Below are positions 1,193 to 4,510 of a stretch of DNA of 64,000 bases, piece by piece. Made by a program: the position numbers and the translations under genes. Every line of letters begins with the position of its first letter. Position 1 is the stretch's first letter. Under the pieces are notes generated by a model that saw nothing but the letters and a program-made list of their open reading frames with translations, was not told the origin of the DNA and made no database searches. The stretch comes from Aliivibrio wodanis (GTDB lineage Bacteria; Pseudomonadota; Gammaproteobacteria; Enterobacterales; Vibrionaceae), in assembly GCA_000953695.1 (NCBI GenBank), contig LN554846.1:1178001-1242000 (forward strand). Reading direction: 5' to 3'.

Positions 1193-1930
1193 ATGATCAT
1201 TCCAGCATTAGATTTAATTGAAGGCCAAGTGGTTCGTCTGTTTCAAGGCGACTACGGGCAAGTAACAGAATATAAAGTTGATCCGGCTGAGCAGTTTAAT
1301 CTGTATCACCAAGCAGGTGCAAATTGGCTACACCTTGTTGATTTAACGGGTGCAAAAGACACAACAGCACGCCAGTTAGATTTGATTGCACGTTTGTTAG
1401 CAAGTACCCCTGCCAATATTCAAATTGGTGGTGGCGTACGTAACGAAGCAGACGTTCAAGATTTATTAAACGCCGGTGCACAACGTGTGGTGGTTGGTTC
1501 TACCGCAGTAAAGCAGCCTGAATTAGTCAAAGGTTGGATGGAAAAATACGGTGCAGAAAAAATCGTATTAGCGCTAGATATTAACATTGATGAAAACGGC
1601 ACTCGTAACGTTGCTATTTCAGGTTGGCAAGAAGATTCAGGCGTAACGATTGAAGCATTGCTTGAAGATTACCTAACGGTTGGCCTTAAGCACGTGTTAT
1701 GTACTGATATTTCACGCGATGGCACGTTGCAAGGCTCGAATGTAGAACTCTACGTAGACCTATGCAAACAGTACCCACAAGTGCAATTTCAATCATCAGG
1801 TGGCATAGGGTCACTGGATGATATTGCTGCGCTTAAAGGCTCAGGTGTTGCAGGAGTGATTGTTGGTCGAGCATTGCTTGATGGCAAGTTCACCGCAGAG
1901 GAGGCATTCCAATGTTGGCAAAGCGAATAG
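1193..1930 (+). CDS. hisA: Phosphoribosylformimino-AICAR ribotide isomerase HisA
   Basis: HisA (245 aa) carries out the Amadori isomerisation of ProFAR to PRFAR in histidine synthesis. It is a (beta/alpha)8 barrel: catalytic Asp about residue 7 in IPALDLIEG, phosphate-binding IGGGVR in the first half, CTDISRDG with the second Asp near 170, and [10 protein letters not shown] plus GVIVGRAL in the C-terminal phosphate site. The ATG at 1193 follows AAGGA at 1183-1187; an in-frame GTG at 1163 lies within the upstream repeat and is not used here. Its last codons contain the ancestral hisF start (see 1912-1929), showing that hisF formerly overlapped it directly. Confidence 0.97.
1912..1929 (+). pseudogene. 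Stranded first six codons of the ancestral hisF
   Basis: In the +1 frame relative to hisA, these bases read ATG TTG GCA AAG CGA ATA, i.e. M-L-A-K-R-I, exactly the first six residues of the present hisF at 3737. In enterobacteria the hisA end and hisF start overlap in precisely this way (hisA ...CWQ- shares bases with hisF MLAKRI). After ATAG the similarity to hisF ends and fic-locus sequence begins; the frame stops at 1957. This marks the left junction of the fic insertion. The five base differences from the working copy are all synonymous. Confidence 0.8.
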
Positions 1931-1956
1931 CCGTTAACTATAGGCTCAGTTATTGA

Positions 1957-2022
1957 TTTGTCCTTAAGGTTGTCCTTTGCGTGTCCCTAACTGTTGTTGG
2001 GTGTCCTTAGCTGGGCTATGAT
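1957..2022 (+). promoter_or_regulatory. Putative fic promoter with iterated TGTCC(C/T)TA boxes
   Basis: Four TGTCC boxes occur at 1959, 1971, 1982 and 2002 (TGTCCTTA, TGTCCTTT, TGTCCCTA, TGTCCTTA). A possible sigma-70 promoter, TTGTTG (1993-1998) and TATGAT (2017-2022), overlaps the last box. Because the downstream protein has an N-terminal winged-helix-like segment, the boxes are plausible autoregulatory operators. That is inference; only the repeats themselves are seen directly. Confidence 0.45.
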
Positions 2023-2051
2023 GAGGTATATAAGACAATGAGCCTTCGATT

Positions 2052-3458
2052 ATGAAAAACAATTCAATCTCTATTACACAAGAGTTAGAGCAAATTAAAA
2101 GTGTTATAGAACGGGTAAATAAACCGTTGTCAAAGAGTGAAATTCATCAACTGTTGTCTTTTGATATCAATGAAAAAACGCTTCAGAGACGACTTAAAAA
2201 ACTCGCTGATGAGTCTCATATTGCGACATCGGGTCAACGAAGTGCTCTTAAATACTTGTCTTTAAACAAGAATATGGTCAATTCATCAGAACTTCAAGAC
2301 AGAAAATCAGTTGATAGCCATAGTTTCTTGTTAACTCAAGAGTCCCTAGAGAAACTTAAGAGACTCGATACACCTTCTTATGCTCGCGTTAAAGTGTCCT
2401 ATGATCAGTCTATAGTCGAAAGTTATGTCCCTAATCAGACGAGGTACGTATCTGAAGATATTGCTCTGAAACTCAGAACTCTAGGTAAACGTTTTAATAA
2501 AAAGCTTGCTGCAGGTACTTATGCTAAGGACATTGCACAGAGACTTCTCATCGACTTATCATTTAATTCAAGTCGATTAGAGGGAAATACATATTCAATT
2601 CTTGATACAGAAAGGCTACTTCAAGCTGGTGAAGCTGTTAATGGTAAGTTCGATGAAGAAACCATTATGATCTTAAACCACAAAGAGGCGATTCTGTTTT
2701 TGATTGAAAATGCTGAAGAGATTTCCGTAACTCCTTTTGTGATCAGAAATTTACATCAGTTATTGTCTCAAGATTTGTTATCTGATAGTTCTTCATGCGG
2801 TAAAATTAGGCAAATTGAAGTCAAAATTACTAAGACTTCCTACCTACCGTTAAATTCTCCGCAGCAATTAGAAGAATTATTTACACTGCTTTTGAGAAAG
2901 GCAGTAAAAATTAATGACCCGTTTGAGCAATCCTTCTTTCTATTTATGCATCTATCGTATATTCAAGCTTTTGAGGATGTTAACAAGCGTACGGCACGCT
3001 TAAGTTGTAATTTACCGTTTATCCAAGAAAACCTATGTCCATTAAGCTTTGTGGATGTCCCTAGAGATGACTATGTTAAAACGCTGATTTATTTTTATGA
3101 AACAGGGGATTACATTCCTGCACTAGAGGTATTTTTGTGGGCATATGAGCGTTCTAGCGAACAGTATAAGATTGTTGAACAGTCGATTGGTGTTATTGAT
3201 TCGTACAGGATTAAATATCGCAGTGAACGTAAACAAGTGATCGGTGAAATTATCAGAGGAATGATTGTTGGTGTGGAGGTTCAGGCTCATTTGGAGCTAT
3301 TCTGTACTGAGAATAAGATTCAAAATGCTGATAAGTTCATTTCTATCACTACGGTTGAACTTGATAAACTTCATAGTGGCGCGATTATTTCACTTGGTGT
3401 CACTGAGAATATCTTCCTTATTTGGAAAGAAAAGTTCGACACTAGCAAGGTAGCGTAA
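2052..3458 (+). CDS. Fic-domain protein with N-terminal HTH and an atypical Fic motif
   Basis: 468 aa. Residues 1-75 look like a helix-turn-helix/winged-helix segment (LSKSEIHQLL ... KTLQRRLKKLADE). A central Fic fold follows. Near residues 173-179, SSRLEGN fits the [S/T]xxxE[G/N] inhibitory helix that blocks ATP gamma-phosphate binding in autoinhibited Fic proteins. The Fic loop near 305-317 reads IQAFEDVNKRTAR: the usual catalytic His of HPFxxGNGRxxR is Gln and the Gly is Val, while the N-K-R-T-x-R anion-binding part is intact. Classical AMPylation may therefore be absent or altered. The gene sits alone in its orientation between hisA and hisF and appears to be a cargo insertion. It could be a Fic-type transcriptional autoregulator or toxin; substrate unknown. 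Confidence 0.85.
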   Translation: MKNNSISITQELEQIKSVIERVNKPLSKSEIHQLLSFDINEKTLQRRLKKLADESHIATSGQRSALKYLSLNKNMVNSSELQDRKSVDSHSFLLTQESLEKLKRLDTPSYARVKVSYDQSIVESYVPNQTRYVSEDIALKLRTLGKRFNKKLAAGTYAKDIAQRLLIDLSFNSSRLEGNTYSILDTERLLQAGEAVNGKFDEETIMILNHKEAILFLIENAEEISVTPFVIRNLHQLLSQDLLSDSSSCGKIRQIEVKITKTSYLPLNSPQQLEELFTLLLRKAVKINDPFEQSFFLFMHLSYIQAFEDVNKRTARLSCNLPFIQENLCPLSFVDVPRDDYVKTLIYFYETGDYIPALEVFLWAYERSSEQYKIVEQSIGVIDSYRIKYRSERKQVIGEIIRGMIVGVEVQAHLELFCTENKIQNADKFISITTVELDKLHSGAIISLGVTENIFLIWKEKFDTSKVA

Positions 3459-3736
3459 AAAATATAATCAAGACAGTGTGTAAGCTGGAAGGTTTGCTAT
3501 CAGAATTTTTACTTTTTGTCTTTTTATGTATAACAAAAATGTGTACATTGTCTTTATGAATTAACGATTTAGTCTTGAATAAAAATTCACGGATATTCAG
3601 TTTTAAATATGATAAAACAAACATACTGTTGTAATTCATATTTCTCAAGTTGATATTTACTGATTTCTTACAGGCTTTGAACGTATAAAATGGAGTTAAC
3701 GAGTGTTATTTCAAAAGCTTATTGGTGAGGTACTAG

Positions 3737-4510
3737 ATGCTAGCTAAAAGAATAGTTCCTTGTCTTGATGTTAAAGATGGGCAAGTAGTAAAAGGCGTTC
3801 AATTTCGTAACCATGAAATTATTGGTGATATTGTCCCTCTAGCACAGCGTTACGCAGAAGAGGGCGCGGATGAGTTGGTATTTTATGATATTACCGCATC
3901 AAGTGATGGCCGCGTAGTCGATAAAAGTTGGGTCGCACGCGTAGCTGAAGTGATTGATATTCCATTCTGTGTGGCTGGTGGTATTAAAACCGCCGAAGAT
4001 GCGGCGAAGATTTTAGAGTTTGGTGCTGACAAAGTATCAATTAACTCACCTGCACTGGCGAACCCAGAACTTATCACAGAACTTGCCGATAAATTTGGTG
4101 TTCAATGTATCGTGGTAGGTATTGATTCTTACTTTGATAAAGAAACGGGTAAATACCAAGTTTACCAGTTTACCGGTGATGAAGAGCGTACCAAAGCAAC
4201 CAAATGGGAAACCAAAGATTGGGTGCAAGAAGTTCAAAAACGTGGAGCAGGCGAAATCGTATTAAACATGATGAACCAAGATGGGGTTCGTAATGGTTAC
4301 GATTTAGAACAATTGAAAATGGTACGAGAAGTGTGCCATGTTCCATTAATTGCGTCAGGTGGTGCAGGTGAAATGGTTCACTTTGCGGATGCTTATAAAA
4401 AAACCAATGTTGATGGTGCGTTAGCAGCGTCAGTATTTCACAAACAAATCATCAATATTGGTGAATTGAAAGAATATTTAGCCGAACAGGATGTAGAGGT
4501 GCGCCGATGA
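3737..4510 (+). CDS. hisF: Imidazole glycerol phosphate synthase cyclase subunit HisF
   Basis: HisF (257 aa) joins PRFAR and HisH-derived ammonia to give imidazole glycerol phosphate and AICAR. It is a (beta/alpha)8 barrel with catalytic Asp11 in [12 protein letters not shown] and Asp near 130 in [13 protein letters not shown], and phosphate sites VAGGIKT and ASGGAGEM. The ATG follows GGTGAGG. The usual overlap with hisA is lost: about 1.8 kb containing fic lies between, and the MLAKRI codons are present a second time at 1912-1929. The last codons overlap hisI by 4 bases. Readthrough or a new promoter in 3459-3736 must now supply transcription. Confidence 0.97.

Follow-up and report, generated by a model that had tools for sequence, protein, structure and literature searches.

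The locus described here raises the question of how a foreign gene can come to lie between two overlapping genes of a biosynthetic operon without destroying the reading frame of either. In a stretch of 64,000 nucleotides of the Aliivibrio wodanis genome (assembly GCA_000953695.1, contig LN554846.1, positions 1,178,001 to 1,242,000), referred to as the window, hisA and hisF are separated by an insert of 1,825 bp, in which fic is the sole open reading frame (ORF) longer than 68 amino acids, and the 5' end of hisF is present twice. Our analysis makes it very likely that this insert is an integrase-less and probably immobile remnant, similar to a cis-mobilizable element (CIME), of a family of islands with tyrosine integrases specific for hisF. 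The coordinates of all features are given in Table 1.

The duplication can be read directly from the DNA. The 3' end of hisA is ...TGT TGG CAA AGC GAA TAG, in which the +1 frame gives ATG TTG GCA AAG CGA ATA G, the relic of the native hisF start, and the live hisF downstream of the insert begins with ATG CTA GCT AAA AGA ATA G. The six residues are identical, as are 13 of the 18 bases, and every change is synonymous, as the initial annotation of this locus had pointed out. That annotation also had the fic segment enter exactly at the hisF start and replace its 5' end. The replacement holds, but the position has to be corrected, because the break lies in hisF codons 6-7, in or beside the hexamer GAATAG, and not at the start codon, which is supplied by the insert together with the rest of about 19 nt of exchanged hisF sequence. 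The synonymous divergence, taken at the time as a sign of another lineage or of age, is indeed element-borne, although part of it may stem from the fact that the new hisF start no longer overlaps hisA, a constraint that holds the native start to TGG.

The contiguous overlap ATGTTGGCAAAGCGAATA(A/G) is present in all 13 other genomes of the genus, so the relic in the window is not a chance match. When the window flanks were joined at 1930|3756 and compared with these empty sites, 176-193 of 200 nt agreed without gaps in 12 of the 13 genomes. The remaining genome, G004, agreed at 163 of 200 nt and has a broken hisF frame; its hisF (L019/L020) was matched as two pieces, residues 1-35 and 33-257, which points to a frameshift or a sequencing error. 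The 60-nt bins next to the break are 98% (left) and 100% (right) identical to G008, and no foreign tract was seen in the flanks beyond about 19 nt of hisF when such bins were compared with the genus. A separate history of hisF just past 3737, which had been considered, is therefore not apparent, and neither a fic gene ancestral to all relatives nor fic-less relatives with a non-overlapping junction were seen.

For the family Vibrionaceae, 296 genomes were used, one per species. The native overlap is intact by a strict pattern in 205 of them, and the 91 genomes failing the pattern comprise 17 of a related genus (g12, 194 genomes), two of which have no hisF match, the window's own genome and 73 others. 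All 15 hisF-bearing genomes of g12 in this set were inspected, together with 11 of the 73 others. In ten of these 11, the aligned parts of hisA and hisF are just 46-147 nt apart, so there is no cargo, and G147 is likewise cargo-free. In g12, counted by hand from the junction table, 177 of the 192 hisF-bearing genomes are intact, four contain only a short, cargo-free spacer and 11 are filled or split (G099, G109, G121, G127, G137, G160, G195, G199, G202, G269 and G274). The filled junctions range in size from 1.7 to 45 kb with varied cargo, and an integrase is present in four of the 11 loci. G109 (L124/L125) and G195 (L126/L127) are counted as split loci and not as measured inserts, because their hisA and hisF lie on separate contigs beside different genes; the hisF of both retains an island-type box, GAAATG...TGTTATATAGT, at -188, and their his operon was apparently divided at the hisA-hisF integration point.

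The integrases provide the link between the filled junctions and a mechanism. The island of G274, with 37.8 kb between hisA and hisF, opens with a divergent tyrosine recombinase of 736 amino acids 240 nt after hisA, whose relatives among the 296 genomes are found only in G099, G137 and G199. In these three genomes, hisA is followed after about 200 nt by the integrase, with no other ORF of 130 amino acids or more in between, in islands of 36.5, 11.2 and 44.6 kb, respectively; the arm-binding domain passes the Pfam cut-off in all three and the catalytic domain in one. The integrases of G274, G099 and G199 share 32-59% identity with the G137 protein. R, R, H and Y, which have the catalytic role in tyrosine integrases, are invariant across the four aligned proteins, none of which matched an NCBIfam model when scanned. 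An order-wide search with the G137 integrase gave matches at E 1e-3 or better in 53 of 295 genomes. Among them, G401 from another family shows 52% identity over residues 158-445 and 41% over residues 26-160, and here, too, the gene lies directly after hisA with a hisF relic. Ten further matches in the order, with 25-28% identity, have no hisA or hisF within about 1.5 kb on each side. The close integrases thus all lie at the hisA-hisF site (5/5), which suggests that the integrase of this family catalyses the entry into hisF.

The outer ends of the insert connect it with these islands. Among the 296 genomes, a 302-nt query containing the hisF upstream region and start found four g12 genomes (G121, G127, G202 and G274) with 76-79% identity over about 250 nt, and all four matches terminate in the hisF start. 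A profile search returned the same five strong matches, including the window, and nine weak partial ones (14 genomes). The distance between hisA and hisF in the four genomes is 6.1, 6.9, about 8.6 and 37.8 kb, the last value being that of G274, and the cargo differs. A match of just 32 nt in G108 was not counted as an element, nor were the nine weak profile matches, of which all three loci examined sit upstream of an rluA-like gene as judged by eye; at L088, L089 and L090, the stretch upstream of this gene shows a weak similarity to the type A right end (ACAAAAATGTTGAAAATTGTATTTATTAATAAACGA).

At the left end, the window and G274 share an ungapped match of 18 nt at the same offset, and only 3 of 2000 shuffles reach this score at any placement. 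The core TTATTGAT lies at +38 from the relic ATG in both and at +83 in G199 and G099; its counterparts are TTATTGTT at +83 in G137, TCATTGTT at +72 in G401 and TTATTGA at +46 in G121, with degenerate forms only in G127 and G202 (+45/46 in these last three genomes). A hisF 5' relic adjoins hisA in all five integrase islands (G274, G099, G137, G199 and G401), and about 22-30 nt of the native start are retained in the first four compared with 19 in the window. The displaced native and the element-borne hisF 5' ends are both present in the window, G274, G137 and G199; G099 has the relic, but its HisF carries an in-frame N-terminal extension. In addition, repeat pairs with a spacing of 11 bp occur in G274, G099, G137 and G199 between +150 and +190 at the left end and around -90 at the right end, identical at 18-19 of 20 positions, against a background of 13-17 of 20 in unrelated ends. 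Their sequence differs by integrase type and is alike in G137 and G199. These repeats look like arm-type binding sites and are regarded here as candidates; they are found at both ends in all four integrase islands for which both ends were available, and the window has a degenerate right pair only. The left end of G199 beside TTATTGAT (L087, near +86 from the hisF relic) also matches the window near 3650 at 17 of 20 positions, by chance or through a shared binding sequence. The two ends of the window insert may well correspond to attachment (att) sites.

The best explanation is that a tyrosine integrase placed an island in the 5' end of hisF and that the insert is what is left of it. The right end of such an island would carry a stand-in hisF 5' end, consisting of the ribosome-binding region, the start codon and the first codons, so that recombination in hisF codons 5-8 would displace the native start to a position beside hisA while restoring a full HisF in the same event. 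The same point would have been used repeatedly in Vibrionaceae by islands with different integrases and cargo, among them anti-phage genes in G099 and G137. The window copy would have kept both outer ends and fic with its repeat array and lost the integrase and any recognisable left arm-type site; it can probably no longer move, unless an integrase is supplied from elsewhere. The integrate-and-restore pattern proposed by the initial annotation is supported by the directly overlapping empty sites throughout the genus and by the varied cargo at this point elsewhere. It was also right that the insert contains no integrase, but the vehicle can now be named, since relatives carry a tyrosine integrase directly after hisA. 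Of the suggested minimal cargo-swap hotspot, the different cargo at the same point is found in other genomes; the part concerning an active minimal element fits less well, because the missing left arm-type site makes a decayed island the better reading.

Several observations weigh against this explanation. The window insert has no integrase, and the only match in its genome is weak and of a generic kind (28% identity over 92 residues, E 5.7e-4). The best candidate for a left arm-type site in the insert reaches 14 of 20 positions, which is within the background of 13-17. The G274 integrase, from the island most similar to the insert at its left end, matches the arm-binding domain and, with a weaker signal, the catalytic domain of phage integrases, both below the Pfam cut-offs, and is just 32% identical to the G137 integrase, while that of G401 lies in two frames and is perhaps broken. 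The left-end match is not convincing for G199, G099, G137 and G401, where 114, 66, 1187 and 627 of 2000 shuffles, respectively, reach the score. The right ends of the window and G274 are 76% alike, which links the insert to the island family and not to a donor. Moreover, G121, G127 and G202 possess this right end, yet they lack both an integrase match and a clean relic, and the left motif is degenerate in two of the three. In principle, the right end might therefore be an old region upstream of hisF that was dispersed by ordinary recombination.

Three other origins have to be compared with a decayed island. The fic cassette and the two ends could be an active minimal element that moves as a unit with a hisF integrase acting in trans, for which the retention of both outer ends, the still recognisable right arm pair and the occurrence of fic orthologues with the same repeat array in other contexts can be cited. 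We consider this unlikely, because a left arm site is missing, the fic orthologues at L036 and L037 stand without the right end, and the examined stretches of the other right-end carriers contain the window fic in none of four cases, with only a 26-28% identical Fic relative in G127 and G202. Improbable, too, is an exchange by homology or microhomology, in which DNA of a relative with an already separated hisF was joined at GAATAG and no recombinase acted in this lineage. The hexamer is present at both joints, as this would require, and G121, G127 and G202 have the same right end without an integrase match; however, donor-like tracts would then be expected in hisA or hisF, whereas both flanks are genus-like up to the break, and the placement of the left-end motif exactly as in G274 would be a coincidence. 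The single-gene size of the insert would suit a transposon or insertion sequence landing at the overlap by chance, but this is highly improbable, as the only ORF above 68 amino acids has a Fic domain and there is no Pfam transposase match, terminal inverted repeats are absent (one 12-nt inverted pair is not terminal), a chance insertion would not bring a coding hisF 5' end, and the same point is occupied by unrelated cargo elsewhere.

If the insert is the remnant of an island, the right end may also drive hisF. It supplies the ribosome-binding region, the start codon and about six hisF codons; a promoter scan gave eight matches against 6.1 expected and is therefore uninformative. In seven of 12 island hisF genes, a short ORF follows a GGAG-like site, and its stop overlaps or abuts the hisF start; the other five (G127, G199, G109, G195 and G099) fail this test, and such a leader ORF is also absent from all four genomes with a short hisA-hisF spacer. 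The background is 3-12% of shuffled upstream regions and four of 146 ordinary gene starts. Since native hisF overlaps hisA, a leader ORF with its own ribosome-binding site might stand in for the lost translational coupling, and the islands would then repair the gene pair twice, in its codons and in its coupling. We put this forward tentatively and regard it as possible but less than likely, because the test was framed after the sequences had been seen and the ends are partly related: counted by right-end group, four of about seven show the leader ORF, and some groups (G160 and G269) are perhaps distant type A ends, so that their independence is uncertain.

The Fic domain (PF02661) of the encoded protein scores 37 bits against a curated cut-off of 24. 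Psychromonas marina and Vibrio sp. 99-8-1 have orthologues with 78 and 74% identity in a different genomic context, and the loci of both (L036 and L037) lack the right end. The TGTCC(C/T)T array is found upstream of fic in all three orthologues, whereas the repeat is lacking in five of six more distant homologues and occurs once in the sixth. Judged by this distribution, fic appears to travel separately from the island ends. For Fic proteins that transfer adenosine monophosphate (AMP), the motif HPFx[D/E]GN[G/K]R has been given (PMC2686095). The motif of the window protein, QAFEDVNKR, departs from it, with Gln in place of His in six of six aligned homologues, which makes ordinary AMP transfer by this protein doubtful. 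The protein is similar to the candidate defence proteins SoFic and PDC-S04 of PADLOC (E 1e-13 to 4e-9), and from this similarity and the company of such islands, a role in phage defence might be guessed. A viral or plasmid origin was rejected: the viral_contigs set contains no confirmed relative of Fic or the integrases and no exact right-end box; the integrases of phages and plasmids matched by the G137 integrase are just 21-25% identical to it; and the window Fic matches 98 plasmid records, all below 60% identity (20 listed at 35-42%), and two phage records at 29 and 35%.

Among the cargo proteins scanned in other islands, those of G099 include the BREX components BrxB, BrxC and PglX, a G137 protein gave matches to AbiLi and PDC-M12A, and two of G274 are UvrD-type helicases; the single scanned proteins of G160 and G199 gave no match. 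The insert of G160 (L121:1468-2682) at the same junction is a one-gene insert of 1.7 kb, whose protein of 404 amino acids has no Pfam or PADLOC match. The Fic relative of G127 (L048) and G202 (L049) is 245 amino acids long and does not occur in G121, and the differences among these three genomes look like cargo turnover inside one insert lineage.

The gene order in the window is the end of hisB, hisH, hisA, then hisF and hisI, with hisB, hisH and hisI named by eye and hisA and hisF additionally by Pfam. hisH and hisA are separated by about 110 nt (1080-1192); the best alignment ends near 1183-1193 in nine of 13 genus genomes, and elsewhere in the genome this stretch has two short partial copies only. 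IS66-like transposition genes, named by eye, lie shortly downstream of the his operon (6930-9215). An Rfam match to group II intron D1-D4-3 at 22740-22792, 53 nt against a model of 170 positions and located between two ORFs, is probably spurious.

Table 1. Features of the hisA-hisF junction and its insert (positions in the window).
Feature	Position	Strand	Remarks
hisA	1193..1930	+	Complete, native overlap codons at its end; sequence read directly, Pfam, identity to genus
Displaced native hisF 5' end (attL side, putative), ATGTTGGCAAAGCGAATAG	1912..1930	+	Same 19-mer (last base A or G) in 13/13 empty sites
GAATAG, left copy of the hexamer common to both joints	1925..1930	+	Sequence read directly
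Left-end motif TAGGCTCAGTTATTGATT	1941..1958	+	Contains TTATTGAT at +38 from the relic ATG; identical offset in the G274 integrase island
Four TGTCC(C/T)T repeats, putative operator travelling with fic	1959..2008	+	0/2000 shuffles; also in L036 and L037
fic, Fic-domain protein of 468 amino acids	2052..3458	+	Motif QxFxDVNKRxxR; N-terminus winged-helix-like by eye only
Conserved right end (type A)	3508..3755	+	Common to G121, G127, G202 and G274
Invariant right-end box AAAAATGTGTACATTGTCTT	3535..3554	+	-202 from hisF
Degenerate right arm-type repeat pair (candidate)	3648..3669	+	In register with TGCTGATTTTTTGCTGATTTT of G274 at -89; aligned rows read by eye
GGAG resembling a Shine-Dalgarno site (3692-3695) and mini-ORF of 14 codons (3703-3747)	3692..3747	+	Stop overlaps the hisF start
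Element-borne hisF 5' end that replaces the native one, ATGCTAGCTAAAAGAATAG	3737..3755	+	Right GAATAG copy at 3750-3755
Working hisF	3737..4510	+	Host sequence back from 3756; Pfam, flank identity

The hisF islands can be placed beside known systems. The integrative and conjugative elements (ICEs) of the SXT/R391 type in prfC are large conjugative elements; they differ in the target gene, and the window insert holds fic only. Islands and prophages at dusA, which carry an integrase, target the 5' end of a protein gene and substitute their own 5' sequence (Farrugia et al., 2015, PMC4482086; IMEVchUSA3, PMC8409611). The hisF islands are like them in entering the 5' end of the target gene and replacing it, but their target is a gene overlap inside an operon, their integrases are without NCBIfam match and the window copy has no integrase. 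The best reading is that the hisF islands would work in the way of dusA and prfC islands, with which they share a fixed entry point in the 5' part of the target and the presence of displaced native and element-borne 5' ends; an own integrase and arm-type sites at both ends are the features of this type that the window insert lacks. With the left-end motif and the right end, the probable att sites, kept and the genes for integration and transfer gone, the insert is similar to a CIME as defined in PMC5704250. It differs in the missing left arm-type site, and the window shows no second element at this site. The resemblance of the cargo to SoFic and PDC-S04 lies in the Fic domain, and the window motif differs from the published Fic motif in its Gln for His. 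No description of hisF as a site of 5'-restoring islands was found in the open-licence literature searched, including passages of PMC12824646 outside its site tables. hisF may thus be a new target gene for a known type of island.

An odd duplicated gene start thus becomes a recognisable island integration site in the Vibrionaceae and in at least one genome outside the family, and some of the islands carry anti-phage genes. The integrase group, the defined ends and the loss of the native overlap as a diagnostic feature allow such islands to be found in draft genomes. The locus is also a natural experiment in which mobile DNA breaks an overlapping gene pair in a biosynthetic operon and the reading frame is preserved.

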